Part shown: positions 3,579 to 46,187 of the stretch, piece by piece | How positions within the stretch are numbered: position 1 is the stretch's first letter | Layout of the letters: each line of letters begins with the position of its first letter | Assembly: GCA_910574935.1 (NCBI GenBank) | Contig: CAJTCU010000003.1 | Coordinates: forward strand, 124,001-188,000 | Direction: 5' to 3' | DNA length: 64,000 nucleotides | Origin: Oscillospiraceae bacterium | GTDB lineage: Bacteria > Bacillota > Clostridia > Oscillospirales > Acutalibacteraceae | Translations under genes and position numbers: made by a program | The notes under the pieces: model-generated | What the model was told of the DNA's origin: nothing | Databases searched by the model: none | Seen by the model: the letters and a program-made list of their open reading frames with translations, nothing else

Positions 3579-3640
3579 GGGAATTTGCCCTTGCTTTGGC
3601 GAATGGTCCAGCCCAAAACACCCGAAAAGGGGAGAAGGTA

Positions 3641-4402
3641 TTGGAAAACACAGAGAAAGATATTTACGGCAGCGGTATTCTCGCTGGACGTAACCCCGTG
3701 GCCGAGGCCCTGCGCTCTGGCCGGGCGGTGGACTGCGTCTATCTGGCCCCAGGGCCCCGCTCGGGCCAGCTGCCCCTTATTTTAAGGCTAGCCAAAGAGC
3801 AAGGCGTGCCTGTAAAGGAGGCGGACCCCCGCAAGCTCTCTCACATGTGCAACGGGGCCAACCACCAGGGGGTAGTTGCCGTGGCGGCAGCCAAAGACTA
3901 CGCCACCGTGGAGGACATGCTCTCCCTGGCCCAAAGCCGGGGAGAACCGCCCCTGCTGGTGGTATGCGACGGCCTGGAGGACCCTCATAACCTGGGTGCC
4001 GTGATACGGGTGGCAGAGTGCGCGGGGGCCCACGGGGTCATTATCCCAAAGCGCCGCAGCGTGGGGCTTACTTATGCGGTGAGCAAGGCCTCCGCCGGGG
4101 CGGTGGAGTACCTGCCCGTGGCCCGGGTGCAGAACCTGGCCTCCTTAATGGAGGACCTAAAGGCCCGGGGACTGTGGGTATTTGCGGCGGACATGGACGG
4201 CGGCCCCTGGTGCCAGGCGGACCTTACCGGCCCCACAGCCCTGGTCATTGGTTCCGAGGGTAAAGGCGTCAGCCGCCTGGTAAAAGAAAAGGCCGACTTC
4301 GTGGTAGCTTTGCCCATCCGGGGACAAGTGAATTCCCTGAACGCCTCGGTGGCGGCGGGTATCCTCTGTTACGAGGCTGTACGTCAGCGGGGCGGGCTTT
4401 GA
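3641..4402 (+). CDS. rlmB: SpoU-family 23S rRNA 2'-O-ribose methyltransferase (RlmB/TrmH-like)
   Basis: Transfers a methyl group from SAM to a ribose 2'-OH of rRNA; RlmB modifies G2251 of 23S rRNA. An N-terminal substrate-binding domain (YGSGILAGRNPVAEAL) is followed by the knotted SPOUT domain with its three motifs: CDGLEDPHNLGAVIR, VIGSEGKGVS and LPIRGQVNSLNASVA. The TTG at 3641 was chosen because GGGGAG (3629-3634) sits 6 bp upstream. An upstream in-frame ATG at 3596 lies only 18 bp past the foldback element and has no ribosome binding site. About 253 aa is typical. The SpoU assignment is firm; the exact target nucleotide is inferred from the family. Confidence 0.88.
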   Translation: MENTEKDIYGSGILAGRNPVAEALRSGRAVDCVYLAPGPRSGQLPLILRLAKEQGVPVKEADPRKLSHMCNGANHQGVVAVAAAKDYATVEDMLSLAQSRGEPPLLVVCDGLEDPHNLGAVIRVAECAGAHGVIIPKRRSVGLTYAVSKASAGAVEYLPVARVQNLASLMEDLKARGLWVFAADMDGGPWCQADLTGPTALVIGSEGKGVSRLVKEKADFVVALPIRGQVNSLNASVAAGILCYEAVRQRGGL

Positions 4403-4823
4403 GGGCTGCCCGTGCTACCCAGTAAGCCGGGGAACACTCTGACCCAGCCTTTGGCCATGGCCCGGCGCTGGACATCTCGCTTTTTGAGACAGTGGACGAG
4501 GAAGAACATCAGGCCTCCCCACTAGCTATGAAATGTCTCCATACGGCAAAGAGGACCTTACCCCTGTAGCAGGAGAACCGAACGTTGAGACAGAGGAGCC
4601 GAATACTGTGCGAGGATGAGATTTTTGTACAGACCCTGGAGACTTTGTACATGGTTTTACCCATAGAGGTCCCTGGTCCTACGGATTAGGGCACCTGGGC
4701 AACAGCCTATGAAATGTTTTCGAGCCGGCGAGTATGAGAACCAGAAGAAACCGCTTTCCATAGAAGAAATGGAAAAACATCGCTGGCAGGGCCACGGGCC
4801 CCACCGGAGAGGAGCACATCAAT
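4403..4823. other. Intergenic stretch, possibly a decayed coding remnant
   Basis: 421 bp after rlmB without an intact gene. Stretches in different plus-strand frames look codon-like (for example around 4455-4565 and 4640-4705) but are broken by stops, which could mean an old pseudogene; I recognise no family. The last 20 bp carry GGAGAGGAG, the ribosome binding site of the next gene. Confidence 0.3.
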
Positions 4824-7800
4824 ATGAATGAAGATTTCACCCTGGAGGATATTTTGGAGGAACAGCGCCAAAAGCGGGAACAGGCCCAAACCGCGATCGC
4901 GGGAACAGCCCCCACCACGGCTCCTGCCCAAAACCAAGAGCCGGCCCGTAACCAAACCCAGGAGCCGCATCTGCCCCCTGGGGCGGAATATGTGGAGGTA
5001 AGCCCAGAAGAGCTCGAGGCAGATACGGATGCTCCTTTGCAGTCCGCTGCCCCCCAGGCGCCCCCCCGGCTGGCCAGCCCCCCCCAGCCGGAGCCTCCGC
5101 CCACCATGGAAGAGGAGTCCCCAGCCCCTTCCCCTTTGCCGGCAGAGGGGGGCAAAAAGAAAAAGAAGAAAAAGCGCTGGAGCCTTTTTGGCAAGAGGAA
5201 GGTGCCAGACTTTGACGAGAGCGAAGAGGATATGTACTACGGCATCCAGCTTAAGCCGATTGACGAGTACCGGCTGGATGGCGACGCACCTCCTCTGGGA
5301 GAGGAGGGCTATAAGGCCCTGTTTGACGACTCTAAGTCCATTGACGATGAGGTAGAGGAAAACTTCCTGCGCCTGCAAAAGGAGCGCCGCCGCCGGGTGG
5401 CTGAAACCGTGCAGAGCGCGGGCATGGACGAACAGCAGATTGCCGAGGAGTTCGGCGTAGTAGCTCCCATGCCGGTGACGCCCTTTGCCGCCGATCCCTA
5501 CGCCCGCCAGCACGGTCTGGACGTAGAGGGCGTCAGCGGTTTGAGCGACCTGCAAAAGGCCATGCTGGAAACCTCTGGCGACCAGACTATGGAGATCAAG
5601 CTGAATGTGCTGAACAGCACCATTGAGCTGCAAAAGATCGGCGACGGGGCCCCCCCTGTGAGCGAAGAAACTGTGGAGCGCATCCTGGAGGCAGCCCCAG
5701 CCCAGTCTCCCCAACAGGAGTATGGGGAGCAGAGTGCCTACGTCGAACCTCCCCAGCAGGAGTATAGGGAGCAGAGCGCCTACGCTGAACCTCCCCAGCA
5801 GGAGTATAGGGAGCAGAGTGCCTACGCCGAACCTCCCCAGCAGGAGTATAGGGAGCAGAGTGCCTACGCTGAACCTCCCCAGCAGGAGTATGGGGAGCAG
5901 AGCGCCTACGTCGAACCTCCCCAGCAGGAGTATGGGGAGCAGAGCGCCTACGCTGAACCTCCCCAGCAGGAGTATAGGGAGCAGAGTGCCTACGCCGAAC
6001 CTCCCCAGCAGGAGTATAGGGAGCAGAGCGCCTACGTCGAACCTCCCCAGCAGGAGTATGGGGAGCAGAGCGCCTACGCCGAACCTCCCCAGCAGGAGTA
6101 TAGGGCGCAGAGCGCCTACGCTGAACCTCCCCAGCAGGAGTATGGGGAGCAGAGCGCTTACGCCGAACCTCCCCAACAGGAGTATGGGGAGCAGAGTACC
6201 TACGCCGAACCTCCCCAACAGGAGTATGGGGAGCAGAGTACCTACGCCGAACCTCCCCAACAGGAGTATGGGGAGCAGCCGGCCGTCTCAGAAAAAACGA
6301 TTGAGATGCCCCGGGCAGCAGTCCGGCAGGCTCAGGAGCAGGCGCCTCCTCCCCCGCAGCCTCCTCGGAAACCGGCCCCGCCGCCCAGGCCCACTCAGCA
6401 GGTGCCCTATGTGGAGAATATCTTCCAGTACCGCTCCCGGGCCATGCCCACCCACATCATTAACGCCAATGTGCTGCAAAGCGCCCTGCTCAGCGAGTCG
6501 GACGCTATTCAACGTACGAAAGAGGCGGAAGAGGCCCTGCGAACCCCTAAACCCCAAAAGCGTCCCCGGCCCCAAAAGGCAGAAGAGGCCGCGGCAAAGC
6601 CCAAGCCGCCTAAAAATGCCTCTCCGCCTTCGCAGGACACTGGCGAGGCCATAGAGGACTACACCGGCCCTGAGGACGCCCGGTCTGTTGCTAATGAGCT
6701 GCGAGGGGAAATGCACGAACTCTCTTTACGCATTATGATTACAGGCGTGTGCACGGTGCTACTGACCCTGGTGGCACTGGTGTGCCGCAGCAGGTTCTCG
6801 GTAACAGCTGGCTCTGGCAGCTGGCCTCTGGCTTATGTAATTCTCACCCTGGTGTTCTCCATTGTAGCAGCAGGGGTCTGCTATAAGACCGTTGGCAACG
6901 GCCTAAAGGCCCTGTTCGCTGCCAAAGCCAACTCGGACAGCGCTGTAGCCGTGGCCGTGCTGGCTGGCCTAGTGCAGACTGTTTGCTCTCTGTTTTTCCG
7001 AGAGGACCTGGTTACCGGCGGGCTGCATCTGTACGCCCCAGTGGTTTCAGCCCTGCTGCTGGCCAACGCGGCGGGCAAGCTGACCATGATTCGCCGGATT
7101 CATAGTAACTTCCGGTTTGTCACCTCTCGGGAGCAGAAGTACGCTGTAAAGACGTTTGACGACTACAATACCTCCCTAAAAATGACGAAGGATTGTGTGG
7201 CGGAAAAACCACTGATTTCCTACCAGTGTAAAACCGGATTCCTCAAGCGCTTCCTGGAGCTCTCCTATGCTCCGGACCCTTCGGAAGCCTCTTCCCAGGT
7301 TATCGCGCCCCTGGGGCTTATCTGCTCTTTGGTATTATGCATTGCCTGCTTGCTGATTACAAGCAGCGTCCCCACAGCAGTCAGTGCTTTTTCAGCGGCC
7401 TGCTGCGCCTGTGTGGCAGCGGCCAATATGCTCTCCGTCAACCTGCCCATTAGCCGGATGTGCAAAACCGCCCGCCGGGCCGGCGGCATGCTGGTGGGTT
7501 ATGAGGCAGTGGAAAAGTTTGGCGACGTAAACGCTGTAATTGCCGACGCCGGGGATCTGTTCCCCACAGGTACCGTGGTGTTGGGGGGCATTAAGACCTT
7601 TGGCAGCCGGGTGATTGCCGAGGACGCCATTATGTGCGCAACGGCCCTGATGAAGGAGATTGGCGGACCCCTTAGCGGGGTATTCGACCAGGTAATTAAT
7701 GAAGCGGAAGAAATTCTTCCCGAGGTGGAAAAGTACACCTATGAGAGCGGCGGAGGCATTGTGGGCCGGGTAGACGGCAAAACCATCTACATCGGCGGCC

Positions 7801-8378
7801 GGGGCCTGCTAATCAACCACCGGCTGGAAGTGCCTACTCGGGAAGAGGAAACCCAGTACGCCTCTGGCAACCAAAATATCATTTATATTGCCGTGGACAC
7901 GATGGTAGCCGCTATTCTGGTGCTGAGCTACTCGGCAGACCGGCGGCGAAAAAATGAATTGCAGCGGCTGGAGGACAGCGGAATCAGCGTGCTGGTGCGT
8001 ACCACGGACCCCAACGTTACCGTGGCGCTGGTCTCCCGGCTGTTTGGCATCGACTCCGCCAGCGTGGGCATTTTGGATGCCCAGCTGGGAGACACCGCCA
8101 ACCGGTTGACCCTAGAGACCGACCCCAGGGCGGACGCAGTGGCAGCCACAAAAGGCCGGATGGAGTCCATGATGAGCCTCATCTCGGCCTGTGTGGAACA
8201 AAAACGCACCGCGGGGATTCTGGTGGCCATACAGACCGCCGCAGTGGTGCTGGGCTTTGTCTTGGTGGCACTTTTGGCCTGTTTTGGGGGAATGCGGCAG
8301 CTTTCCACCCTGGTGTTATTCTTGTTCGAGCTGTTCTGGCTAGGGCTTCTGGTGCTCATTCCTAAGCTGCGGCGCTAG
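4824..8378 (+). CDS. Large membrane protein: disordered repeat-rich N-terminus and degenerate P-type-ATPase-like C-terminus
   Basis: 1184 aa. Residues 1-295 are acidic, proline-rich and disordered, with a lysine run near 112. Residues about 296-491 are 14 tandem copies of a 14-residue unit built on PPQQEYGEQSAYAE. A proline-rich linker follows. From about 636 there are paired transmembrane helices, a soluble region and a final helix pair (about 1130-1180). The soluble region has the layout of a P-type ATPase P/N domain, but the phosphorylation motif DKTGT is replaced by DAGDLFPTGT (near 904), and no TGES or GDGxND motif is seen, so ATPase activity is unlikely. The ATG has GGAGAGGAG upstream. 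Function is unknown; it may be a scaffold or sensor. There is no signal peptide, so the repeat region probably faces the cytoplasm. Confidence 0.75.
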   Translation: MNEDFTLEDILEEQRQKREQAQTAIAGTAPTTAPAQNQEPARNQTQEPHLPPGAEYVEVSPEELEADTDAPLQSAAPQAPPRLASPPQPEPPPTMEEESPAPSPLPAEGGKKKKKKKRWSLFGKRKVPDFDESEEDMYYGIQLKPIDEYRLDGDAPPLGEEGYKALFDDSKSIDDEVEENFLRLQKERRRRVAETVQSAGMDEQQIAEEFGVVAPMPVTPFAADPYARQHGLDVEGVSGLSDLQKAMLETSGDQTMEIKLNVLNSTIELQKIGDGAPPVSEETVERILEAAPAQSPQQEYGEQSAYVEPPQQEYREQSAYAEPPQQEYREQSAYAEPPQQEYREQSAYAEPPQQEYGEQSAYVEPPQQEYGEQSAYAEPPQQEYREQSAYAEPPQQEYREQSAYVEPPQQEYGEQSAYAEPPQQEYRAQSAYAEPPQQEYGEQSAYAEPPQQEYGEQSTYAEPPQQEYGEQSTYAEPPQQEYGEQPAVSEKTIEMPRAAVRQAQEQAPPPPQPPRKPAPPPRPTQQVPYVENIFQYRSRAMPTHIINANVLQSALLSESDAIQRTKEAEEALRTPKPQKRPRPQKAEEAAAKPKPPKNASPPSQDTGEAIEDYTGPEDARSVANELRGEMHELSLRIMITGVCTVLLTLVALVCRSRFSVTAGSGSWPLAYVILTLVFSIVAAGVCYKTVGNGLKALFAAKANSDSAVAVAVLAGLVQTVCSLFFREDLVTGGLHLYAPVVSALLLANAAGKLTMIRRIHSNFRFVTSREQKYAVKTFDDYNTSLKMTKDCVAEKPLISYQCKTGFLKRFLELSYAPDPSEASSQVIAPLGLICSLVLCIACLLITSSVPTAVSAFSAACCACVAAANMLSVNLPISRMCKTARRAGGMLVGYEAVEKFGDVNAVIADAGDLFPTGTVVLGGIKTFGSRVIAEDAIMCATALMKEIGGPLSGVFDQVINEAEEILPEVEKYTYESGGGIVGRVDGKTIYIGGRGLLINHRLEVPTREEETQYASGNQNIIYIAVDTMVAAILVLSYSADRRRKNELQRLEDSGISVLVRTTDPNVTVALVSRLFGIDSASVGILDAQLGDTANRLTLETDPRADAVAATKGRMESMMSLISACVEQKRTAGILVAIQTAAVVLGFVLVALLACFGGMRQLSTLVLFLFELFWLGLLVLIPKLRR
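5709..6296 (+). repeat. 14 tandem 42-bp repeats inside the large membrane protein gene
   Basis: Fourteen copies of a 42-bp unit starting CCCC(A/G)(A/G)CAGGAGTAT, exactly in phase, with a diverged last copy. Copies differ mainly at the G/R residue after EY, the A/V before EP and A/T in the SAY triplet. The period is a multiple of three, so other frames and the antisense strand also stay open here and produce spurious long open frames. Confidence 0.9.
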
Positions 8379-9437: not shown

Positions 9438-9553
9438 AAAATGAAATAAGGGGTGCCGAACATTGGCTGAGAGGAGCAAGAGCCGTTAAGGCTTTGGAGC
9501 TTAAACCCTAAGAACCTGATGCGGATAATACCGACGGAGGAAGCATTTCATTT
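9438..9553 (+). promoter_or_regulatory. TPP (THI-box) riboswitch
   Basis: The conserved thiamine pyrophosphate aptamer elements occur in order: GGGGTGC, GGCTGAGAG, ACCCTAAGAACCTGAT and GGATAATACCGACGGAGGAAG. The P1 closing stem is complete, AAAATGAAAT (9438-9447) pairing with ATTTCATTTT (9544-9553). A terminator hairpin at 9732-9759 precedes thiT, so control is probably by transcription termination when TPP is bound. Confidence 0.95.
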
Positions 9554-9731
9554 TCTTTGCGTAGAGGCAAATAATATTGGGAACCCGGCGCTTTAGCCCC
9601 CTAGCCAAGGGGACGCATAATCCCGCCAGATTAAGAAAGAATCCATAGGGTCTTTCTAGTAGGTTTCCTATAGCTTATGGCGTTTGGGTCGAGTAAGCCC
9701 CACGTTTTTGCTCTACAAAAAGGATGCTTTC

Positions 9732-9771
9732 GCGCTGCCTGGATTTTTCCGGGCGGCGCTTTTTCATTTTT
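9732..9771 (+). terminator. Riboswitch-controlled terminator before thiT
   Basis: GCGCTGCCTGGA (9732-9743) pairs with TCCGGGCGGCGC (9748-9759), allowing two G-U pairs, followed by TTTTTCATTTTT. It lies between the TPP aptamer and the thiT start. Part of the 180-nt linker between aptamer and terminator may act as antiterminator; I did not resolve that alternative pairing. Confidence 0.7.
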
Positions 9772-9801
9772 CAAAAAAATTTTCTGAAAGGAAAGAAGCA
9801 T

Positions 9802-10431
9802 ATGAACAACCAAAACCCAAACCCGTCCGTCAAAAAGGGCCCAAACCACCAGGTGCTGAACCTGGCCCTGGCCGGAATCCTCATCGCCCTGGGAACCATC
9901 CTGTCCTTTTTAAAGCTGTTCGATCTACCCTATGGGGGCTCGGTCACCATTTGCGGCATGCTGCCCGTTATGGTGTTCGCCTACCGCGCCGGCCCCAAAT
10001 GGGGGCTGGGGGCTGGCCTTGTATTCAGCGTTTTACAATTGCTTTTCGGCCTGGACGCTCTAAAAGGGGTCAGCGGCGCCACCGTAGTGGGCTCTATCTT
10101 CCTGGACTACCTGCTGGCCTTTACCGTGCTGGGGCTCGCAGGCATTTTCCGGGGAAAGCTGAAAAGCCACCCTACCGCCTTTACCCTGGGCTGCCTGGTA
10201 GCCGGGCTGCTGCGCTACCTCTGCTCCTTCCTCTCCGGATGGATTTTATGGAGTGAGTATGCGGACGCGAACTTTTCCCCTATTCTGGCGGGCATGAGCG
10301 GGCAGCAGCTGGCGTTTTTCTACTCCCTGGTCTATAACGGCGGATACATGATTCCAGAAATTCTCATCACCTGCATAGCAGGCTTTTTGGTAATGCAATT
10401 CGCGGGCCAGCAGATTTTGAAGGGGACGTGA
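9802..10431 (+). CDS. thiT: ECF transporter thiamine-binding S component ThiT
   Basis: 209-aa integral membrane protein of the ThiT family, which binds thiamine with high affinity and uses a shared ECF energizing module (EcfAA'T) encoded elsewhere. About six hydrophobic segments are visible, with the conserved GGSVTICGMLPVMVFAYRAGPKWG region after helix 2. The control by a TPP riboswitch supports the substrate. The ATG at 9802 was chosen over an upstream in-frame ATG (9724) because that one lies within the terminator region and GAAAGGAAAG precedes 9802. Confidence 0.92.
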   Translation: MNNQNPNPSVKKGPNHQVLNLALAGILIALGTILSFLKLFDLPYGGSVTICGMLPVMVFAYRAGPKWGLGAGLVFSVLQLLFGLDALKGVSGATVVGSIFLDYLLAFTVLGLAGIFRGKLKSHPTAFTLGCLVAGLLRYLCSFLSGWILWSEYADANFSPILAGMSGQQLAFFYSLVYNGGYMIPEILITCIAGFLVMQFAGQQILKGT

Positions 10432-18804: not shown

Positions 18805-20847
18805 TTACAGCTCCATCTCAAACTCGACCTCATGCCGCAGAGGAATGCCGTTGGCCCCCATCTCCGGCAACTGGGGCTTATACTTGCGCACCAGCTCCAT
18901 CATGTTGTGATACAGCCGCGCCATGTCGAAGCCCCGCTTCTGGTAAAAGCCTATGGCCTGTAGGTTATCGTTGGTGGTAACCACCACCAGCTTTTTGCAG
19001 CCTCGCTCTTTGGCGGCGGCTTTCACCCGCTCAACGAGAGCTGTACCAGTCCCCCGGCCGCTGTGGACGCTGTCCAGAGAGATAATCTCGCATACGTCCC
19101 CCGCCACGTTGTAGGTCACAAGACCCGCCAGCTTCTGCTCCTGCCAAGCGGCAAAGGCCGGAAGCCTGGTCATATCCACCGCCTGCCCGCGCACATACAT
19201 GGTGGTGGCAAGCCAATGCTCTTGCAAAAAGGCGTTCACCACGCCGCGCTGGCGCTCCTCTATTGGGCGGATCTCCACTGGAGCGGCGTCCTCTGCTTTT
19301 TTATTGTTTTGGCTGATTCCCGCATCCGCTGCCTGGAGCGCGGGGTTTGCCGCCGGCTTGGGCTCGTGCTCCTTTTGAAGCTGGCCCGCCTCCATAGAAC
19401 GGGAGCTCCCTAACCCGCAACCACCAACCTGTCCGTCGGCAGCGGATGGGGCCTCGCTTTGCCCGTCTCCGTCCAGTGTGTCCAGCCAGCCGCAGGGAAC
19501 AACCGGGCCCAGACGGTAGATCTTTACCCCATAAGGGGGCAGGTCGATGCCGCCGTGCAGTTCTTCCCCCTTGCCCGAGAGCAGCTCGGTGGCGGGGCCA
19601 TTGTAATTGCACTGGATGTGGAACCCGCCGCCGTCCGCGTTAATGGCCACCAGCACCGTCTCCTCCTGGCACTCCCGGCGGATGACGATCTGCTTGTTCA
19701 GCAAGGTCTCGTTTTTGTAGCCCCCCTCGCTCAAGGCCTTGCTGTGGAGCTTCACCCGGCTAAGCCGGGCCAGGAACTGGGTCAGCTCGTTCTCTACCGG
19801 CCCATCAAAGCAGGGCCGCAGGGCCGGGTCGCCCTGGTGTTTGTCGCCGTCCGCACCCCACTCGCTGCCGTAGTACAGGCAGGGGATGCCCGGCATACCG
19901 TACAGCATCGCGTACAGACCCGGCAGCTGCTCCTTTTCCTTTAAAATGGTGTGGATGCGGGTCACATCGTGGTTGTCCGCAAAGCACAGCAGGTGCTCGC
20001 CCCGGTACAGGCACCAGTTCTCGCTGCCGAACTGCCGGTTGAGGGAGTGGGCGATCTCAAACATATTCTTGTCGTTAAAGGAGGAATACAGCCCCTTGTA
20101 GCACTCATAGTTGGTGACGCTGTCCAGCATATCTGGGTTCATGATGCGCCGGTAGTCCCCGTGGATCATCTCCCCCAGAAGGAAAAAGCCCGGGTCCCGG
20201 CCCTTGGTAAACTGGTGCAGCCGGCGCATGAAGTTCTCGTCCAGCAGGTAGGCCACGTCCAGCCGCAGGCCGTCGATGGCGAACTCGTCCATCCATCCAG
20301 CCACGCACTCCAAGATATGGTCCACCACCGCGGGGTTTTGCAGGTTCAGCTTAACCAGCTCGTAGTGGCCCTCCCAGCCCTCGTACCAAAGGCCGTCGTT
20401 ATAGCCCGAGTTGCCGCCGAAATTGATGTGGAACCAGTCCCGGTAGGGGGAGCTCTCCCGGTTGCGGAGCACGTCCTGAAAGGCCCAGAAGCCCCTGCCC
20501 ACGTGGTTGAACACGCCGTCCAGCACCACCCGGATGCCCTTTTCATGCAAAGCGCCGCATACCTGGGCAAAGTCCTGGTTGGTCCCCAAGCGTGTGTCGA
20601 TCTTGCGGAAGTCCCGGGTGTCATAGCCGTGGGTGTCGGACTCGAACACAGGGGAAAAGTATACGGCCCCCACCCCCAGCTTGGCAAGATGTCCGGTCCA
20701 GTCCAGCACCTTTAGGATGCGGCTTTGGGGGCGGCCGTCGTTCTCATAGGGGGCCCCGCAGAAGCCGATGGGATAAATTTGGTAAAATACCGCGCTGTTC
20801 TGCCAGCCGGGCTGGTTTTTCAGGCGGATGACTTGGGTTTCGCTCAT
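18805..20847 (-). CDS. GH13 alpha-amylase-family enzyme fused to a GNAT acetyltransferase domain
   Basis: 680 aa. Residues about 1-450 are a GH13 glycosidase with all four conserved regions: DGVFNH, DGLRLDVA (nucleophile Asp), LGEMIH (acid/base Glu) and FADNHD (transition-state Asp). A charged, low-complexity linker (about 450-523) leads to a GNAT domain (about 524-680) with the acetyl-CoA loop SGRGTGTALV and a typical ending, AIGFYQKRGFD. No signal peptide, so it acts in the cytoplasm on imported maltooligosaccharides or related glucans (inference). The ATG at 20847 has GAAAGGAAA upstream; longer in-frame starts run into the neighbouring pseudogene. Direct GH13-GNAT fusion is unusual. Confidence 0.88.
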   Translation of the reverse strand: MSETQVIRLKNQPGWQNSAVFYQIYPIGFCGAPYENDGRPQSRILKVLDWTGHLAKLGVGAVYFSPVFESDTHGYDTRDFRKIDTRLGTNQDFAQVCGALHEKGIRVVLDGVFNHVGRGFWAFQDVLRNRESSPYRDWFHINFGGNSGYNDGLWYEGWEGHYELVKLNLQNPAVVDHILECVAGWMDEFAIDGLRLDVAYLLDENFMRRLHQFTKGRDPGFFLLGEMIHGDYRRIMNPDMLDSVTNYECYKGLYSSFNDKNMFEIAHSLNRQFGSENWCLYRGEHLLCFADNHDVTRIHTILKEKEQLPGLYAMLYGMPGIPCLYYGSEWGADGDKHQGDPALRPCFDGPVENELTQFLARLSRVKLHSKALSEGGYKNETLLNKQIVIRRECQEETVLVAINADGGGFHIQCNYNGPATELLSGKGEELHGGIDLPPYGVKIYRLGPVVPCGWLDTLDGDGQSEAPSAADGQVGGCGLGSSRSMEAGQLQKEHEPKPAANPALQAADAGISQNNKKAEDAAPVEIRPIEERQRGVVNAFLQEHWLATTMYVRGQAVDMTRLPAFAAWQEQKLAGLVTYNVAGDVCEIISLDSVHSGRGTGTALVERVKAAAKERGCKKLVVVTTNDNLQAIGFYQKRGFDMARLYHNMMELVRKYKPQLPEMGANGIPLRHEVEFEMEL

Positions 20848-20965
20848 GGTTTCATTTCCTTTCTTTTTTAAGAATCTGTATTCACAGCGGACTGGCCTCT
20901 GGCGGCAAAGAGTCGTTTGGCTGCCAAAGGGTTTCTTTAAGGCCCCTCCCGTATGAATACGGATT

Positions 20966-21356
20966 CTAACTTTCCGGGCGGGTCTCCATCTGACCGCAGA
21001 GCATGGTGGTAAACCCGAATTTTTCGTAAAATGGCCGCAGGCTTTCTTCGCCATAAATCACAGAGATCATATAAATTTGGTCAGATTTCAAACGGGCAGT
21101 GGCCCGGTTCATCAGTTCCGTGCCGACGCCCTTTCTCTGATAGAACTATCACGTCCTGGATATACGCGTCCGTGGCGCCGTTGCTTACCACCGCCAGAAA
21201 GCCCACCAGTCTTTCGCCATCATAGCAGGCGGCGCGGAGGTAGTCGTGCAAAGCGGGATCCCCCAGCTCCGCCTCCATACCGCCCCAGCCCACCGACCGC
21301 CGCAGAGCGGCGACGCGCTCAGGGGACGCGCTGGCGTCCATAACGTAGTTCAGCAT
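20966..21356 (-). pseudogene. GNAT acetyltransferase with frameshift
   Basis: The first frame reads MLNYVMDASAS to AYIQDVIVLS and breaks near 21140. Another frame then continues the GNAT fold exactly: YQRKGVGTELMNRATARLKS to PFYEKFGFTTM, ending at the TAG at 20966-20968. Residues corresponding to the usual LPEYQ segment are partly missing, consistent with a small deletion (about 8 nt, not a multiple of three) at the acetyl-CoA loop. The gene is probably inactive unless this is a sequencing error. Confidence 0.75.
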
Positions 21357-25602: not shown

Positions 25603-26508
25603 TCATCTCTCCTTTTTGGTCCCGAAATCCGGGATATATTTTGCGCCCTTGGCTTCTCTAGACTGGACAAAACCGTCCAGCCCCAGAGAAAACAAAGCGT
25701 CCTGCACTTTGTGAAGCTCCCGCCGGGTAATGGCCCGGGAGAGCTCTGGATATCCGGGAATGCCCCCGGGCTCTTTGGCTCTACCCCAAGGGGTATACTG
25801 GGCCATCAGGCTAACCGGGACCCCGGGAAACCGCTGGCCAATGGCTTCCAACACTTGAAGGGAGTTTTTGGTGTGCCCAGGCAGAATCAGGTGGCGGATC
25901 ATTACGCCCTTTACCATCATCCCCTCCCCGTTGTACTGGGGCAGGCCCGTCTGACGCAGCATCTCTCCAATCGCCTCGAAAGCTCGCTGTGGATAATCCG
26001 GCGCGGCGGAAAGATCCCCGCTAAGCTTTTCCTGGGCATATTTGTAATCCGGCAGATAGATGTCCACCAGCCCTTCCAGGCTTTGCAGGGTTTCCACCCG
26101 CTCATAGCCGGAGGTATTGTATATCACAGGCACCGGCGGCTTTTTTAGCAACAAAGCCCTTCGTATTTGGGGGGCGAAATGGGTGGGGGTCACCAAATTG
26201 ATATTGTGGGCCCCGGCCTCTATCAGCTGGAAAAATATTTCGCTCAGTTCCTCTGGGTCCACCTCCCAGCCGGGGTTTTCCGCTGTACTGATCTCATAGT
26301 TCTGGCAATACAGGCACCCCAGAGGACAGCCTGTGAAAAACACGGCCCCGGAACCATTTTTTCCGCTGATGGGCGGCTCCTCCCAGTGATGCAGCGCTGC
26401 CCGGGCAATATGCATCTGCCCGCCGCTTTTGCAGGCTCCCAGGTTCTCAGGGGGCTCTCGGGACACGCCACAGCTTCTGGGGCAAAGGCGGCAGGCCAGG
26501 GGCTTCAT
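25603..26508 (-). CDS. PflX-like radical SAM protein (COG1313 type)
   Basis: About 301 aa. The N-terminal cysteine pattern ACRLCPRSCGV, then the radical SAM motif CPLGCLYCQNYEIS and HNINLVTPTHF. This is the pyruvate formate-lyase activase-related group (PflX/COG1313), whose target protein is not established. No glycyl-radical enzyme is adjacent. The ATG at 26508 overlaps the stop of the upstream exonuclease-PgeF gene (ATGA), so translation is coupled. The CHAP gene follows 6 bp downstream. Confidence 0.85.
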   Translation of the reverse strand: MKPLACRLCPRSCGVSREPPENLGACKSGGQMHIARAALHHWEEPPISGKNGSGAVFFTGCPLGCLYCQNYEISTAENPGWEVDPEELSEIFFQLIEAGAHNINLVTPTHFAPQIRRALLLKKPPVPVIYNTSGYERVETLQSLEGLVDIYLPDYKYAQEKLSGDLSAAPDYPQRAFEAIGEMLRQTGLPQYNGEGMMVKGVMIRHLILPGHTKNSLQVLEAIGQRFPGVPVSLMAQYTPWGRAKEPGGIPGYPELSRAITRRELHKVQDALFSLGLDGFVQSREAKGAKYIPDFGTKKER

Positions 26509-28241
26509 GGGTTCAGGGCCAGCATCGCGCAGTTGCTGCCCCGCTGGCCCCGGGTCTTTCGGTGAGAGAACACCAGGCTGCTCTCTTCCATGGTGCACAG
26601 TCCGCCCAGGGTGATGTGTTCCTCTCGCACACCCGTCCCCAGCAGAGACCGGCGGCAGCACTCCCACAGGTCCACGTGGTATTTGCCCCCCTGGGGCCCA
26701 GTAACAAAGACCTCTGCTCCAGGCAGAGCCAGGAACTCCTGGGCTACGGGCTCATCCACCTCGAAGCAGTTCTGGCAGATGGAGGGGCCCACTGCCGCCA
26801 GCAAATCGCCGGGGCAGCTGCCGAACTCTTCCGCCATGCGGCGGACCATCACCCCCGGCATCCCTGCCGCAGCCCCCCGCCAGCCCGCATGGGCCAGGCC
26901 AATAGCTTTTTTCACTGGATCTACAAAGTAGATGGGCACACAGTCTGCTCCATAGACAACAAGAGTGACCCCCGGGGCGTCTGTGCACAGGCCGTCGGCG
27001 CTGTCTATATCATTTTTACGCCAAACGCCCAGTCCCCGGTGGCTCTCATCCACCCGGCGGATGTCTGTTTTATGCACTTGGCAGCCGCATACCAGGGAGT
27101 CTGGATCAAACCCGGCAGCCACACAGAAGCGGCGATAGTTCTCCGCCACGTTTTCTTCTGGGTCCCCCCGGCCAAAGCCCAGATTCATGGCAGCGAACTC
27201 CTTTTCACTGACGCCTCCCAGGCGAGTGGAAAAGGCGTGGGTTACCAGTCCAAGTCCTTTCCAGGCCGGAAAGCGCAACACTCCCACGCCGCCGGAGACC
27301 TCCAGCTCCATATTCCCCACCGGGCCCGGGACCGCCTGACGGGGCTTTTCTATAATGGGTACAGGGAAAGTTTTCTTATTCACAGTCAATCCCTCATATT
27401 TCTCTTTGATAATCACCCGGCCCGCAAAGGGCCAGCCACAGCTTTCGCAGGAGAACTCTGCCCGAAACCCCCTGTTGCGCAGCACCCACTGGGAGGCTCT
27501 GCGGGTCTTGCCACCACAGTGAGGACAGGGAAAGCTCAGGTCCGCCTCCTTGGCCTTGGGGTCCTCCATGTCCGTAATATAATGGGTGCGGAAGGTCATT
27601 TTTTTGTAAAATTCCCGGTCGCAGTGCTGAATATAGGGAACAATCGCTTTGGGGTCAAAGGTGCGCTCCAGCACCTTTAAAGTCACTAAGCTGTCGTCCA
27701 GCGCCCGGTGCTGCTCCATCTGGGAGATGTCCAGGCCCAGCAGCTCCGCCGCTTTGGAAAGGCCGGTCTGGGTGGCCGGGTCCAGGCCCAGCACGTCCTG
27801 TACATAGCGCTGCAAATCGCAGTACCGGGTAAGAAACGGCACCTGCTGGTCGCCGCTGAAGTAGCGGCAGTTTTCAATGAGTGTAAGAATATCCCCAGTG
27901 CCCCAGGTCATCAGCACGCAGTCCCCCAGCCAGTGGCGGAAGCGGCTGACTGCCCGCATAAAAGGTATGCCACCGGTTAGGCTCTCGTCGGTAAGGTTGG
28001 TCAGGTCCGTAACCACCGCGTTCAGGTGCTTGCTGACTTGGGGACGGACAAAACAGGCAAAGGTCCCGGCAGGGGAAAAGTCCGGGCCGCATTTAACCGC
28101 GCCGAACTCGATGATTTCGTTGATATAGCCTTTTAGTTTGCGGCTGTAGGCGGCGTTCCATTCCAGGTCTAAGATAGCAAGATTGATAACGGGTTTCCCC
28201 CTTTCGAGAAATCGTGGACTATGCAAAAACGCGGGACACAA
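26505..28241 (-). CDS. Fusion of DEDDh 3'-5' exonuclease, zinc ribbon and PgeF/YfiH (multicopper polyphenol oxidase-like) domain
   Basis: Up to 578 aa in one frame. About residues 19-205 are a KapD-like exonuclease (ILDLEWN with Asp/Glu, and HRALDDS). A zinc ribbon follows (CPHCGG and CESCGW, about 237-270). From about 315 to the end is a PgeF/laccase-domain protein (FSTRLGGVSEKEF, CGCQVHKTD, YGADCVPI, LAHAGWRG), a family with purine nucleoside phosphorylase/deaminase and peptidoglycan-editing roles. Start uncertain: the only standard start before the exonuclease fold is a TTG at 28241 without a good ribosome binding site, while AGGGGG sits just before the codons GTT ATC at about 28190, hinting at a rare ATC start. 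The two enzymes are normally separate proteins. Confidence 0.82.
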   Translation of the reverse strand: MCPAFLHSPRFLERGKPVINLAILDLEWNAAYSRKLKGYINEIIEFGAVKCGPDFSPAGTFACFVRPQVSKHLNAVVTDLTNLTDESLTGGIPFMRAVSRFRHWLGDCVLMTWGTGDILTLIENCRYFSGDQQVPFLTRYCDLQRYVQDVLGLDPATQTGLSKAAELLGLDISQMEQHRALDDSLVTLKVLERTFDPKAIVPYIQHCDREFYKKMTFRTHYITDMEDPKAKEADLSFPCPHCGGKTRRASQWVLRNRGFRAEFSCESCGWPFAGRVIIKEKYEGLTVNKKTFPVPIIEKPRQAVPGPVGNMELEVSGGVGVLRFPAWKGLGLVTHAFSTRLGGVSEKEFAAMNLGFGRGDPEENVAENYRRFCVAAGFDPDSLVCGCQVHKTDIRRVDESHRGLGVWRKNDIDSADGLCTDAPGVTLVVYGADCVPIYFVDPVKKAIGLAHAGWRGAAAGMPGVMVRRMAEEFGSCPGDLLAAVGPSICQNCFEVDEPVAQEFLALPGAEVFVTGPQGGKYHVDLWECCRRSLLGTGVREEHITLGGLCTMEESSLVFSHRKTRGQRGSNCAMLALNP

Positions 28242-28274: not shown

Positions 28275-30098
28275 TTATTTCTTCCTGCTGGCCTGCTTCA
28301 TTCTCTGCTCATGAGACAGCGTGGCTTTTCGCATCCTTACGCTTTTGGGCGTTACCTCTACGTACTCGTCCTCGCCAATAAACTCTAGGCATTGTTCCAG
28401 GCTCAGCACTGAGTGGGGTGTCAGCTTCAGGGCTTCGTCCGCTCCAGAGGACCGGGTATTGGTGGCGTGCTTTTTCTTACAGATATTCACCACCAGGTCC
28501 TCGCTCTTAGGGCTCGCCCCCACGATCATCCCCTCGTATACCTCCACTCCGGGGCCAATAAACATCCGCCCCCGGTCTTGGGCATAAAACAGTCCGTAGG
28601 CTGTCGATTCGCCGGTCTCAAAGGCAATAATAGAGCCCTGCTGCCTTTGGGAAATATCTCCCTTATAGGGCTCGTAGCCCTCAAACACATGGTTCATGAT
28701 TCCGTTGCCATTGGTGTCGGTCAAAAACTCCGAGCGGTAGCCCATCAGGCCCCGGGCGGGAATTCGAAACTCCATATGGGTTACGCCAGTCTCCCGGCTG
28801 CCCATATTCACCAGCTCCGCTTTACGCGAGCCAATTTTCTCCATTACCGCGCCCACATAGTTGTCCGGGGTCTCAATCATTAAAAGCTCCATGGGCTCAA
28901 GCCGCTGGCCATCCTTCATCTTATAGATTACCGTGGGAGGCGACACCTGGAATTCGTATCCTTGGCGGCGCATCTGCTCGATGAGAATGGACAAGTGCAG
29001 TTCGCCCCGGCCCGAGACCTTAAAGGTGTCCATGCTCTCGGTCTCTTCCACCCGCATGGCCACGTTGGTCTCCACCTCTTTAAAAAGCCGGTCCCGGAGG
29101 TTCCGGGAAGTGACGAATTTGCCCTCCCGCCCGGCAAAGGGGGAGTCGTTCACTTTGAACATCATAGAAACCGTGGGCTCGTCAATCTTTACAAAGGGCA
29201 TGGGCTCTATAGTATCTGGGGCACAGGCCGTCTGGCCAATGTTCAGATCCGCGATGCCGGACACCGCAATGATGTCCCCCAGCTGGGCGCTCCCTGCTTC
29301 TACCCGCTTCAGCCCTTCAAACTGATAGAGTTTTGTGATCTTAGCCAGCTTGTGGCCCTCTTCTCCGCCGCCGCAGATGGCTACCTGCTGGCCTGCTTTA
29401 ATAACGCCCCGCTCCACTCTGCCAATGCCGATACGGCCTACGTAGTCGTCATAATCAATATTGGAGAACAGCACCTGGGTGGGGCCCTCCAGGTCTCCCT
29501 GAGGAGCGGGCACCTCTTTCAAAATCATCTCAAACAGAGGGGTCATATCCTCTCCTGGAGTCTCCGGCTCCAACGTGGCGTAGCCCTCCCGGGCGGAACA
29601 GTATGCCACCGGGAACTCCAGCTGGTCGTCGTTTGCCCCCAGCTCAATGAACAGGTCCAGCACCTCGTCTACCACCTGGGCGGGGCGGGCCCCGGGGCGG
29701 TCGATCTTATTCAACACCACCAGGGGCTTTTTGCCCAGAGCCAGGGCTTTTTTCAGCACAAACCGGGTCTGGGGCATACAGCCCTCAAAGGCGTCTACAA
29801 GAAGCAGCACGCCGTCCACCATCATCAGGACCCGTTCCACCTCGCCGCCAAAGTCCGCGTGGCCAGGGGTGTCCACAATGTTGATTTTTGTGTCCTTGTA
29901 CATCACGGCGGTATTTTTAGAGAGGATGGTAATGCCCCGCTCCCGCTCCAGGTCGCCAGAGTCCATCACCCGCTCGGCCACCGCCTCGTTACTTCTAAAA
30001 ATGCCGCTCTGCCGCAGCAACTGGTCCACCAGGGTGGTTTTTCCATGGTCTACGTGGGCAATAATGGCCACGTTGCGCAGGTCGTTTCTTGTTCCCAT
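28275..30098 (-). CDS. typA: Ribosome-associated GTPase TypA/BipA
   Basis: 607-aa translational GTPase that binds ribosomes, supports 50S assembly and helps under stress or cold. G-domain motifs are complete: AHVDHGKTT (G1), RGITI (G2), DTPGHADFGG (G3) and NKID (G4). EF-G-like domains II, III and V and the TypA-specific C-terminal domain follow, and the length is normal. The start is ATG. A strong sigma-A promoter lies at 30236-30264, leaving a leader of about 130 nt. Confidence 0.96.
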   Translation of the reverse strand: MGTRNDLRNVAIIAHVDHGKTTLVDQLLRQSGIFRSNEAVAERVMDSGDLERERGITILSKNTAVMYKDTKINIVDTPGHADFGGEVERVLMMVDGVLLLVDAFEGCMPQTRFVLKKALALGKKPLVVLNKIDRPGARPAQVVDEVLDLFIELGANDDQLEFPVAYCSAREGYATLEPETPGEDMTPLFEMILKEVPAPQGDLEGPTQVLFSNIDYDDYVGRIGIGRVERGVIKAGQQVAICGGGEEGHKLAKITKLYQFEGLKRVEAGSAQLGDIIAVSGIADLNIGQTACAPDTIEPMPFVKIDEPTVSMMFKVNDSPFAGREGKFVTSRNLRDRLFKEVETNVAMRVEETESMDTFKVSGRGELHLSILIEQMRRQGYEFQVSPPTVIYKMKDGQRLEPMELLMIETPDNYVGAVMEKIGSRKAELVNMGSRETGVTHMEFRIPARGLMGYRSEFLTDTNGNGIMNHVFEGYEPYKGDISQRQQGSIIAFETGESTAYGLFYAQDRGRMFIGPGVEVYEGMIVGASPKSEDLVVNICKKKHATNTRSSGADEALKLTPHSVLSLEQCLEFIGEDEYVEVTPKSVRMRKATLSHEQRMKQASRKK

Positions 30099-43362: not shown

Positions 43363-46029
43363 TTAGCTTTTTCGCCTTTGGCCGTCTTTTCTCTTTTGGG
43401 CTTGCCTTATGGCGTCCCCTACTGTGCCGCCCCGGAGGGCCAGTCTTTTTTCCCGCAGAATTTCCGCTATCTCCCCCTGGGCCCTTTCTACTTCGGCTCG
43501 CAGCTCCTGGGCCGGCATCCGCAGAGCCCCGTGGCCCAGAATAATCAGCTGCTCCGCAAAGTCCGCGCTGGCCACCAGCACCCGTCTGTGCTCTTTGGTC
43601 AACTGGTAGCTGGCCTTTTCAATATATGCGTCCGCGGTTTCGGCCTCTTTGGTATAGACCACATGAATGTTATGGTACTTGAACACCGATCCCGTGCCCT
43701 TTGGCACCTTATAGGCGTCGAATACTAAAATCACCCGGTTCTGCCGGAAGCCCTGGTAGTTGCTGAGAATATCCATCAGCGCCTGCCGCGCGGACTCCAG
43801 GTCCTCTCTAGCAATGGCGTTCAGGTCTTTCCATGCAAAGATCATATTGTAGCCGTCCACTAGAAGATATTCCGGGCCCAGGGCGGGCAGCCGCACCTTG
43901 TCGGGACCCGGGTCCGCGTCCTGCCGCTTTTCCTGGGGGAGGAACCCTCTGGCCCGCACTGGGCCATAAGTCTTTTCAAAAATAGCAAGCAGCTCTGCGT
44001 CCTGTTCCAGGGTGGCGGCAGGCCCGCCCCGGGCGGCGGGGGCAGGGTCAAAAGGGCGGACCGGGGCCGCCTCCTCTTCAGCCGGGGCGGCGGGCTCTGG
44101 GCCAGGCAGACGCAGGGCGGGCAGGTGCATATAGTCCTCTACCCGGTCCCAGGGTACTAGGAACCCGGCTCCGTGGGCACAGAACACAGACCCCGCCGGG
44201 TCCTCTGTGTCCCCTTCCGGGTCGTAGCCAATGGCCTCTACCACCTTCTGCTGGTCCCCACAAGGCCGGTACCCCTCCAGGGTACAGGCCACCCGGCCCA
44301 TTCCTTTTGTATAGGCGGCCACCTGGGCGGCATAGTCCCCAAAAGCCGCCACCGGTACGCTGGCCTCCAGCACGGTCTCTTCTCCCAGGGTTTCGGGGGT
44401 TCCGGCCTGCCCCCCCATGCGCTGGATGTCTGCCAGGGCCCGGCCCAGGCTGGGGGTGGGCAGCTCCAGCCGCAGGGCGTACCAGGGCTCCAGCAAAATG
44501 GAGCGGGCTTTCATCAGGCCCTGGCGTACCGCCCGGTAGGTAGCCTCTCGAAAATCGCCTCCTTCGGTATGCTTTTCATGAGCACGGCCTATAATCAGCG
44601 AAATCTTTATATCCGTAATGGCAGAGCCTGTCAAAACCCCCCGATAGATCTTTTCCCCCAAGTGGGTTAGAATCAGCCGCTGCCAGTTCCGGTCCAACAC
44701 ATCCTCCGAACAAGCGCTGGCAAACACCATTCCTGTTCCTCTTGGCATAGGTTCCAGCAGCAGGTGTACCTCGGCGTAGTGGCGCAGCGGCTCGAAGTGG
44801 CCCACCCCCTCCACCGGGGCGGCAATGGTCTCTTTATACACCACGTTCCCTGGACCAAACCCCACCTCAAGGTCAAACCGGTCTCGAATCACCCGCCCCA
44901 GCACCTGGGCCTGAATCTCTCCCATCAGCCGCAGTGTAATCTCCCCTAGGGCCTCGTTCCACTCCAGATGAAGCTGGGGGTCCTCCTCCGCCAGCTGGCG
45001 CAGCTTGGGCAGCACCGCGTGGGCCTGGACTCCCTCCGGCAAAATCAGCCGGTAGCTAAGGGCCGGTTCCAGGGCCGGGGGACGCCCGGCCTTTCCGCTG
45101 CCCAGGGCCTGGCCCGGATAGGTGGAACGCAAACCCGTCACCGCGCAGACTGTCCCGGCGGGGGCCTCCTCCACGGCGGTGAACTTGGCCCCGGAGTAGA
45201 TACGGATCTGGTCCGCCTTCTCTGGCCCTCCGGGCAGGTCCACATTGGCCTTCACCCGCAGGGCGCCCCCTGTTACCTTTAGATGGGTAAGCCGCGCCCC
45301 CTGGCTGTCCCGGGAAATTTTGAACACCCGGGCCCCAAAGGCCTCTCCCCAGACAGGCCGGGGCCCGAACCGGCACAGCCCGTTTAGCAGCTCCTCTACC
45401 CCTTGGGCCCGCAGGGCGCAGCCGAAAAAGCAGGGGAACAGCCGCCGCCCCGCCACCAGCCCCCGTAGGGTGCTATCCCGCAAAGCGCCTTTTTCCAGGT
45501 ATTCCTCCAGCGCGGCTTCGTCCCCTAAAGCCGCCGCTTCCCAAAAAGCGGGCTGCCCGTACTGGGCAAAATCAACAATATTATCAGAAAGAGAGGCCCG
45601 CAGCCTTTCCAGCAGGGCGGCGCGGTCCACGGGCTGGTCCATTTTGTTCACGAACAGAAATACCGGCACCTGGCAGCGCTCCAGCAGCCGCCACAGGGTG
45701 AGGGTGTGCCCCTGGGGGCCGTCTGGGCCGGAGACCACCAGAATGGCGCAGTCCAGCACAGGCAGGGTGCGCTCTGCCTCGGCGGAAAAGTCCACGTGGC
45801 CGGGGGTATCCACCAGGGTGATCTCCACTTCTGGCAGGGGCAGTACCGCCTGCTTATCAAAAATGGTAATGCCCCGCTGGCGCTCCAGCTCCTCGGTGTC
45901 CAAAAATGCGTTGGCGTGGTCCACCCGGCCCATGCCCCGCAGCACCCCGCCCCTATAGAGCATGGCCTCGGTTAAAGTGGTCTTTCCCGCGTCCACGTGG
46001 GCCAGCACCCCGGCGGTCAGCCTGCGCAT
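43363..46029 (-). CDS. Tet(M)/EF-G-like translational GTPase fused to a C-terminal NYN (YacP/Rae1-like) nuclease domain
   Basis: 888 aa. Residues 1-650 are a full EF-G-type GTPase of the ribosomal protection (TetM/W/O) group: AHVDAGKTT (G1), RGITI (G2), DTPGHVDF (G3), NKMD (G4), then domains II-V. A proline/alanine-rich linker (about 655-690) leads to a NYN/PIN-like domain (about 714-888; bases 43366-43890) starting LLVDGYNMIFAW, with further acidic residues in VFDAY, ETADAYIE and SADFAEQ, matching YacP/Rae1, a ribonuclease that cuts mRNA in the ribosomal A site. The fusion suggests GTPase-driven delivery of a nuclease to the ribosome. It may not confer tetracycline resistance. Start ATG with GGAGGAAC upstream. 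Confidence 0.92.
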   Translation of the reverse strand: MRRLTAGVLAHVDAGKTTLTEAMLYRGGVLRGMGRVDHANAFLDTEELERQRGITIFDKQAVLPLPEVEITLVDTPGHVDFSAEAERTLPVLDCAILVVSGPDGPQGHTLTLWRLLERCQVPVFLFVNKMDQPVDRAALLERLRASLSDNIVDFAQYGQPAFWEAAALGDEAALEEYLEKGALRDSTLRGLVAGRRLFPCFFGCALRAQGVEELLNGLCRFGPRPVWGEAFGARVFKISRDSQGARLTHLKVTGGALRVKANVDLPGGPEKADQIRIYSGAKFTAVEEAPAGTVCAVTGLRSTYPGQALGSGKAGRPPALEPALSYRLILPEGVQAHAVLPKLRQLAEEDPQLHLEWNEALGEITLRLMGEIQAQVLGRVIRDRFDLEVGFGPGNVVYKETIAAPVEGVGHFEPLRHYAEVHLLLEPMPRGTGMVFASACSEDVLDRNWQRLILTHLGEKIYRGVLTGSAITDIKISLIIGRAHEKHTEGGDFREATYRAVRQGLMKARSILLEPWYALRLELPTPSLGRALADIQRMGGQAGTPETLGEETVLEASVPVAAFGDYAAQVAAYTKGMGRVACTLEGYRPCGDQQKVVEAIGYDPEGDTEDPAGSVFCAHGAGFLVPWDRVEDYMHLPALRLPGPEPAAPAEEEAAPVRPFDPAPAARGGPAATLEQDAELLAIFEKTYGPVRARGFLPQEKRQDADPGPDKVRLPALGPEYLLVDGYNMIFAWKDLNAIAREDLESARQALMDILSNYQGFRQNRVILVFDAYKVPKGTGSVFKYHNIHVVYTKEAETADAYIEKASYQLTKEHRRVLVASADFAEQLIILGHGALRMPAQELRAEVERAQGEIAEILREKRLALRGGTVGDAIRQAQKRKDGQRRKS

Positions 46030-46116
46030 ATGCGTTCCTCCTTAGCAAAGATAATGTCCTTATTCTGTCGTCCGCTTTCAGAGAAAGCCGGCGCTTCGCG
46101 CTTCAGGGCTTCTCCG

Positions 46117-46158: not shown

Positions 46159-46187
46159 ATTATACCACAGCTTGGGGGAAAAGGGAA
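46159..46187 (-). promoter_or_regulatory. Possible promoter of the GTPase-NYN gene
   Basis: On the minus strand a perfect TATAAT (46159-46164) with a weak TTCCCT (46182-46187) 17 nt upstream. Confidence 0.4.

Follow-up and report, generated by a model that had tools for sequence, protein, structure and literature searches.

The DNA analysed here (the window) is a 64,000-nucleotide stretch of an Oscillospiraceae bacterium (assembly GCA_910574935.1, contig CAJTCU010000003.1, positions 124,001 to 188,000), and it carries a single gene in which a translational GTPase is fused to a nuclease domain (Table 1). Both ends of the frame are matched by Pfam, with five EF-G/Tet-like GTPase domains first and a Rae1/YacP-type NYN nuclease last. 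In the G domain the G1 (AHVDAGKT), G2 (RGIT), G3 (DTPGH) and G4 (NKMD) motifs are all intact; the PGH of G3 holds the catalytic histidine of translational GTPases. In the PDB, Tet(O), EF-G and Tet(M) are matched by the N-terminal part. Among 99 relatives, the window's own genome included, 33 bear YacP, and GTPase and nuclease share one frame in all 31 that were examined; outside these 31, one gene (G004) is split into two pieces that both reach contig ends, and another (G014) is a partial frame only. In named genomes, 75 of the best 80 of at least 597 loci are fused. The other five comprise two truncated at contig ends, one whose nuclease is encoded in a frame of its own and two unfused loci from records titled Bifidobacterium. 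Among the 75, L187 has a frame break within the nuclease, and a further locus (L191) is also frame-broken.

The C-terminal domain scores 163.1 bits against NYN_YacP (PF05991; residues 722–877, E = 7.6e-48, cut-off 24.6 bits), and a phmmer search of the PDB with the last 175 residues returned YacP/Rae1 of Bacillus subtilis alone (entries 5MQ8 and 5MQ9, 6.2e-28). The motifs VDGYN, VFDAY, ETADAYIE and SADFAEQ place their residues at 724–728, 769–773, 797–804 and 822–825. By profile alignment of 138 fused loci, which come from two collections with some genomes present twice, D725 is kept in 138, D771 in 137, D800 in 136, D823 in 136 and E804 in 135. The gaps in the four aspartates trace to the frame-broken L187 and to a locus at a contig end (L050), and one locus (L048) has Gly at position 804. 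The four aspartates of the PIN/NYN site, which we take to be catalytic, are kept in every fused copy that is neither cut nor frame-broken, and the same five acidic residues are present in 30 of 30 free YacP proteins. A preliminary description of this DNA had proposed the continuous frame, the intact G1–G4 motifs and the YacP/Rae1 domain, and all three proposals are borne out. None of the outcomes that it named as refuting was seen: the NYN profile matches, orthologues retain the acidic residues, and the genome has no stand-alone YacP.

An AlphaFold2 model built from 73 proteins (mean predicted local distance difference test, pLDDT, 86; predicted template modelling score, pTM, 0.67) has a confident body at residues 1–640, C-terminal extension included, and a confident NYN domain from residue 720 that is weak around 825–828. 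Within the linker, pLDDT falls below 50 at 648–676 and 690–717, and one helix is predicted at 675–688. The model shows two folded parts that would be joined by a disordered linker of about 70 residues, with the position of the nuclease relative to the GTPase body left undefined. Fold searches with Foldseek and VIA-align, covering residues 1–612, aligned this region with EF-G-type chains, many of them ribosome-bound; one alignment is to a ribosome-bound EF-G (Z 38.2, 603 residues, root-mean-square deviation 10.8). Across the fused proteins the linker is at least 61 residues long (median 78), and a helical motif of the ELxxIFExTYGP type recurs, with variants, in otherwise variable sequence; a pattern for it caught 74 of 137 linkers, and further variants were recognized by eye. 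The short N-terminal stretches of 30 free YacP proteins did not show the motif, and no function was found for it, but it may be a docking site.

Table 1 Features of the fusion locus and the rlmB-type gene, in positions of the window
Feature	Residues	Position	Strand	Basis
Complete fusion gene, 888 amino acids, ATG start		43363..46029	-	open frame, Pfam, relatives
GTPase (G) domain, GTP_EFTU	4–220	45370..46020	-	Pfam, 2.1e-43
EF-G domain II (EF-G_D2)	232–304	45118..45336	-	Pfam, slightly under cut-off
EF-G domain III (EFG_III)	341–392	44854..45009	-	Pfam, slightly under cut-off
EF-G domain IV (EFG_IV)	394–508	44506..44850	-	Pfam
Domain IV tip loop, GRAHEKHTEGGDFR	481–494	44548..44589	-	alignment
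EF-G domain V (EFG_C)	512–593	44251..44496	-	Pfam
Folded C-terminal extension of the GTPase clade, ending SVFCAHGAGF..PW.....MH	594–636	44122..44250	-	alignment, model
Linker, mostly disordered	637–719	43873..44121	-	alignment, model
Helix within linker, motif ELLAIFEKTYGP	675–688	43966..44007	-	model, alignment
NYN_YacP (Rae1-type) nuclease domain; D725, D771, D800, E804, D823	720–877	43399..43872	-	Pfam, PDB, model
Ribosome-binding site, AAGGAGG		46037..46043	-	read from sequence
Putative extended -10-like element, TGGTATAAT		46159..46167	-	read from sequence, inference
rlmB-type SpoU methylase, no yacP alongside		3596..4402	+	TIGR00186 over cut-off

Fused and free YacP across genomes

The fusion is the sole NYN_YacP match in its own genome (completeness 99.97), which agrees with the expectation that a separate yacP would be absent there. 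We surveyed 393 genomes of the class with completeness of at least 90, counting frames of at least 600 residues as fused and frames of 100–230 residues as free, a rule that agreed with the sequence in 60 of 60 loci (30 fused, 30 free; G376 in both). A YacP match is present in 250 of these genomes: 130 are fused and 113 free, with the second copy of G376 counted, and 8 of other lengths were left unclassed. Fused and free forms occur together in one genome, G376, where 37 would be expected if they were independent (Fisher p 8e-23, a statistic uncorrected for ancestry). The two forms are found in different genomes of the same family in five families (f43, f44, f48, f49 and f68) and of the same genus in two genera (g88 and g93). 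Among 149 genomes of a phylum-wide set none has both, and fused frames outside the class are found in three families (8 genomes). This near-exclusion suggests that the fusion fills the place of Rae1, the free gene presumably having been lost after the fusion arrived.

The exceptional genome G376 (family f72) carries its two copies as loci L080 and L081 on contigs C1 and C2, and offers a natural test of whether the two forms have differing tasks. Further weak YacP matches occur in four genomes, in three of them (G215, G268 and G301) below the cut-off. The fourth, G461, bears the fusion and also has two short YacP-like pieces lying next to each other (contig C56, 81209–81444, locus L279; 26.5 bits, slightly above the cut-off, and 21.0 bits), one of them with a stop, and these pieces might be a decayed free copy. 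When the nuclease domain of the window gene was used as the query, the weak extra pieces were not recovered.

On the GTPase side, 74 chosen genomes (30 without YacP, 40 with the free form only, 3 with the fusion, and G376) contain the fused GTPase in 4 cases, an unfused one in 13 and both in none. No unfused orthologue was found in the 80 fused genomes searched; 12 of them have a second match, 35–39% identical, in every case with the HTHPLDF loop of a third Tet-like group described below.

In unconstrained trees an unfused plasmid protein (L164) falls within the fused GTPases and three free YacP proteins fall among the fused nucleases. Holding the fused rows together raised the likelihood by 14.9 in the GTPase tree and by 0.97 in the nuclease tree (approximately unbiased test, p-AU 0.67 and 0.52), and both trees are compatible with a single fusion origin. 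Several origins are not supported, because the trees with the fused rows held together scored higher.

Among the best 80 of at least 597 loci in named genomes, fused genes lie in records titled Lachnospiraceae, Oscillospiraceae, Flavonifractor, Anaerostipes, Mediterraneibacter, Butyrivibrio proteoclasticus and others. Unfused members of the clade include L233 and L250, from records titled Bifidobacterium, and L164, on a plasmid of Ligilactobacillus salivarius and annotated as a tetracycline-resistance protein. Unfused copies lie on L. salivarius plasmids, the matches including 33 Ligilactobacillus records, one of which was examined, and plasmid-labelled records of Monoglobus and Agathobacter rectalis hold fused copies. 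In viral contigs the nuclease query found no relative, whereas three unfused relatives were matched by the GTPase query; in two of these the contig begins right at the gene, so the matches do not demonstrate phage carriage.

Clade and tip loop of the GTPase

Against the tetracycline-protection profile (NF012153) the fusion scores 368.7 bits, where the curated cut-off is 775, and against the EF-G profile (TIGR00484) 226.8 bits, where the cut-off is 659.4. Two unfused orthologues reach 391 and 374 bits on the protection profile. Domains IV–V score slightly higher against EF-G of T. thermophilus than against Tet(O) or Tet(M). A 92-protein tree places 62 fused and 14 unfused members on one side of a branch with full support (SH-like approximate likelihood ratio test, SH-aLRT, 100) and 16 others on the opposite side; this is a quick tree, with odd composition in many rows and with only three protection proteins above the cut-off. 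The opposite side includes those three loci above 775 bits, a third Tet-like group, and five EF-G-like rows, which were named by loop and score rather than by TIGR00484 and are set apart together by a branch with support of 100. The unfused orthologues are 654–688 residues long and end at SVFC.HGAGF..W.....MH, about where the linker begins in the fusion.

The clade, fused and unfused, has its own loop at the tip of domain IV, GRAHxKHTEGGDF with small changes, replacing the SPVSTPADF-type loop of the protection proteins. The latter read GLYYSPVSTPADF in two of the three loci and GEFFSPASTPADF in the third; the loop of the EF-G-like rows is GSYHEVDSSEMAF. In all 138 fused loci, and in all 22 of an unfused set that includes three broken or cut fused genes (L191, L210 and L217) and three loci from the viral collection, the loop differs from that of the protection proteins. 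Lys486 aligns with Pro509 of Tet(M), and this column is Lys in 136 of the 138 fused loci and 21 of the 22; His484 aligns with the loop His of EF-G, and this column is His in 134 and 21. The HxKHTEGGDF loop is older than the fusion, because the unfused orthologues carry it too. According to PMC8161019, Tet(M) has Pro509 in the drug site. The Lys in its column therefore argues against displacement of tetracycline by the Tet(M) mechanism, though a drug role of another kind is not disproved. The preliminary description had linked the fusion to Tet(M) and to drug-bound or drug-stalled ribosomes. That part of it is not supported: the score is below the cut-off, the clade is another one, Lys stands at the Pro509 column, and the search for a conserved leader, attenuator or partner gene that might point to drug induction found none.

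The window's own genome has separate EF-G-like genes and also a second Tet-like GTPase (L142; G000, contig C8, 32238–34187), a 722-residue frame that scores 517 bits, below the protection cut-off, and has an HVHTHPLDF tip loop, an AHADAGKT P-loop and a DAPGHADF G3 motif. The third group consists of similar proteins from relatives; in 12 of 80 fused genomes such a protein was near enough to be matched. A screen of new tetracycline genes tested six protection-type genes (PMC7725328), which may or may not include members of the HxKHTEGGDF clade.

Gene neighbourhood and other features of the window

The neighbour names used here (mrnC, thyX, rlmB, sigH and EF-Tu) are presumptive and rest on gene order and sequence rather than on a profile. 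Of 30 free yacP loci, 26 have an rlmB-like neighbour and 27 a sigH-like one, and an rlmB-type gene is the usual neighbour of free yacP in relatives. Among 61 fused loci an rlmB-like member of this cluster lies nearby in 4 and a sigH-like one in 1, without conserved order. In B. subtilis, yacO and rae1 are adjacent, as stated in an excerpt of PMC6613710. No common partner gene was found within about 5 kb of the fusion: the biggest neighbour cluster covers 15 of 93 loci, in a clustering that took in the regions around 13 unfused loci. In the 61 fused loci, one cluster, found in 10, is made up of frames that overlap the fusion gene itself, and the next occurs in 8.

Regulation by an attenuator or leader was rejected as a candidate, the 147-nucleotide leader folding no better than shuffles (z -0.17). 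No conserved leader was found among the window gene and 12 near relatives (13 in all), likeness being limited to the closest pairs. Elements resembling TGGTATAAT also lie upstream of the fusion genes of several relatives, and the element at 46159..46167 may be a promoter-like -10 element. At gathering scores, Rfam found none of its families at the fusion gene; elsewhere in the window it found a thiamine pyrophosphate (TPP) riboswitch at 9439–9560 (+, 66.3 bits), before a YuaJ-family thiamine transporter at 9724–10431.

Three further places in the window deserve mention. A 749-residue frame at 18805–21054 (-) holds an alpha-amylase catalytic domain and a GNAT acetyltransferase, an unusual join. 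A 578-residue frame at 26505–28241 (-) holds an RNase_T exonuclease and a laccase-type Cu-oxidase_4 domain, and is adjoined by a TypA/BipA gene at 28275–30098. Overlapping frames of 1184 residues at 4824–8378 (+) and 517 residues at 4707–6260 (-) have no Pfam match at the limits used, and either strand may be the coding one.

Proposed function of the fusion

Free Rae1 attacks messenger RNA (mRNA) in the ribosomal A site, according to the relevant passages of PMC12320835 and PMC6613710, and such cutting frees the site for transfer-messenger RNA (tmRNA), as the review among them (PMC12320835) puts it. On balance we lean, if only just, towards the view that the fusion is a tethered Rae1 used in place of the free enzyme, and that the GTPase delivers the nuclease to ribosomes whose A site is unproductive. 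On a ribosome with an empty or unproductive A site, the GTPase would bind at the factor site and use the HxKHTEGGDF loop, in domain IV, to probe the decoding site. GTP hydrolysis and then release of domain IV would follow. The NYN domain, on its flexible linker of about 70 residues, could then enter the vacated A site, or that of a neighbouring ribosome, where it would cleave the mRNA in the manner of free Rae1 and so produce a truncated message that is passed on to rescue. Wherever a genome bears the fusion, it would take the place of free Rae1.

The preliminary description had pictured one machine acting in the A site, and this central idea agrees with the reading preferred here. The near-exclusion of fused and free forms favours the idea of a single machine, but simultaneous use of the A site on one ribosome is unlikely, because the GTPase and Rae1 are both expected in that same site. 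More plausible is that the linker allows a sequential hand-over, or that the nuclease acts on a neighbouring ribosome.

Several other observations, along with the lack of a correction for ancestry given above, weigh against a tethered replacement of Rae1: (i) Of the 13 genomes with an unfused GTPase, 5 have no YacP match at all and 8 have free YacP; the GTPase thus has a job independent of the nuclease, since it occurs unfused where YacP is lacking. (ii) Among 40 free-YacP genomes tested (out of 112), 32 lack this GTPase at the threshold used, so that Rae1 in turn can do without it. (iii) No YacP match was found in 66 of 99 near relatives, or in 50 of the 76 that are well assembled, so the function is dispensable.

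A more ambitious version of the tethered-Rae1 proposal would see a distinct subfamily of translational GTPases devoted to the surveillance of stalls, in which the loop senses an empty decoding site, hydrolysis times the hand-over to the tethered endonuclease, and the whole is a bacterial no-go-decay factor in one polypeptide that has displaced free Rae1 in many Clostridia. We offer this version tentatively and regard it, taken whole, as rather doubtful.

Alternatively, the fusion may be one of convenience, in which a housekeeping or stress GTPase for translocation or recycling and Rae1 keep independent jobs and were joined for co-expression or shared delivery to the ribosome, with a linker that provides no functional coupling. 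Each part does exist alone, the linker is long, disordered and variable, and unfused GTPases occur in genomes without YacP. Nevertheless, the trees allow a single origin, many families have retained the joined form, a helical motif recurs in the otherwise variable linker, and no clearly separated descendant was seen besides the two frame-broken loci. We think a fusion of convenience unlikely. Less likely again is a role in the quality control of ribosomes, in which the GTPase would anchor the NYN domain for trimming or destroying the ribosomal RNA (rRNA) or transfer RNA (tRNA) of faulty or immature ribosomes, rather than mRNA; the nearest solved relative is Rae1, a described A-site mRNA endonuclease, and the fusion is present where Rae1 is missing.

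Still more improbable, in our view, is the suggestion of Atkinson 2015 that a tetracycline ribosomal protection protein acquired an RNase and with it a new mode of resistance. The EF-G/Tet-like domain order is shared, NCBI labels some copies as members of the TetM/TetW/TetO/TetS family, and some copies lie on plasmid records. Yet the fused and unfused proteins alike score about half the protection cut-off, the clade stands apart from the three loci above that cut-off and has another tip loop with Lys at the Pro509 column, and neither a conserved leader (13 loci) nor a common neighbour (93 loci) was seen. Tetracycline protection is therefore unlikely. Finally, a degenerate nuclease or a chimera of gene calling or assembly is very improbable: L187 and L191 are frame-broken, but the same frame and residues recur over many families and in two genome collections, which rules out an artefact, and the retained acidic residues speak against a dead nuclease.

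The fusion is a natural experiment, with Rae1 tied to a factor-site GTPase where the free enzyme is lacking; to our knowledge, how Rae1 reaches particular ribosomes is an open question. If the tethered-Rae1 reading is correct, common gut bacteria have a rescue factor for A-site mRNA cleavage that GDPNP (guanylyl imidodiphosphate) could trap on the ribosome, and a group of proteins, some of which are annotated as tetracycline-resistance proteins, would leave the resistance catalogue.

The architecture itself is already known, since it was described by Atkinson 2015 (BMC Genomics 16:78, PMC4342817), who, in the passages of that paper on the fusion, report it from ten clostridial species and suggest antibiotic resistance based on an RNase. 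The preliminary description had stated that no function was described for such a fusion. This holds insofar as our full-text literature searches, with most subscription papers outside their reach, found no experiment on any member; it does not hold insofar as both the fusion and the resistance hypothesis have been in print since 2015. The present analysis adds the near-exclusion with free Rae1, the retention of the active site, and the placing of the GTPase in a separate clade that has a tip loop of its own. The clostridial Tet-NYN fusions of that paper have, in the same passages, the same order of a Tet-like GTPase and a YacP-like NYN domain; they were placed there in the Tet subfamily, whereas here the GTPase falls in a different clade from that of the protection proteins used for comparison, and the fusion is found where free Rae1 is absent.

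Comparison with the separate proteins gives a similar picture of shared folds and distinct arrangement. Rae1/YacP of B. subtilis (5MQ8 and 5MQ9) shares the NYN domain and the acidic residues, but is a free protein (a PDB chain of 181 residues) encoded beside yacO/rlmB, while the fused domain is the tail of a GTPase at an unconserved site. Free YacP more generally has about 170–200 residues and is encoded in an rlmB-yacP-sigH operon, in contrast to the 888-residue protein of the window, which is encoded elsewhere. Tet(M) and Tet(O) share the EF-G-like domain order and fold with the fusion GTPase and differ from it in the domain IV loop, the C-terminal extension and the clade. EF-G shares the fold, the GTPase motifs and the His at the equivalent place in the domain IV loop, but the fusion falls below the EF-G cut-off and in a separate clade. 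In yeast, Hbs1 is a translational GTPase that acts on stalled ribosomes. The endonuclease Cue2 also acts on stalled ribosomes, as described in the pertinent part of PMC6598757. No-go decay by an Hbs1-type GTPase and Cue2 is thus comparable to the fusion in how it works, with no homology claimed: two separate proteins in yeast, one polypeptide here.

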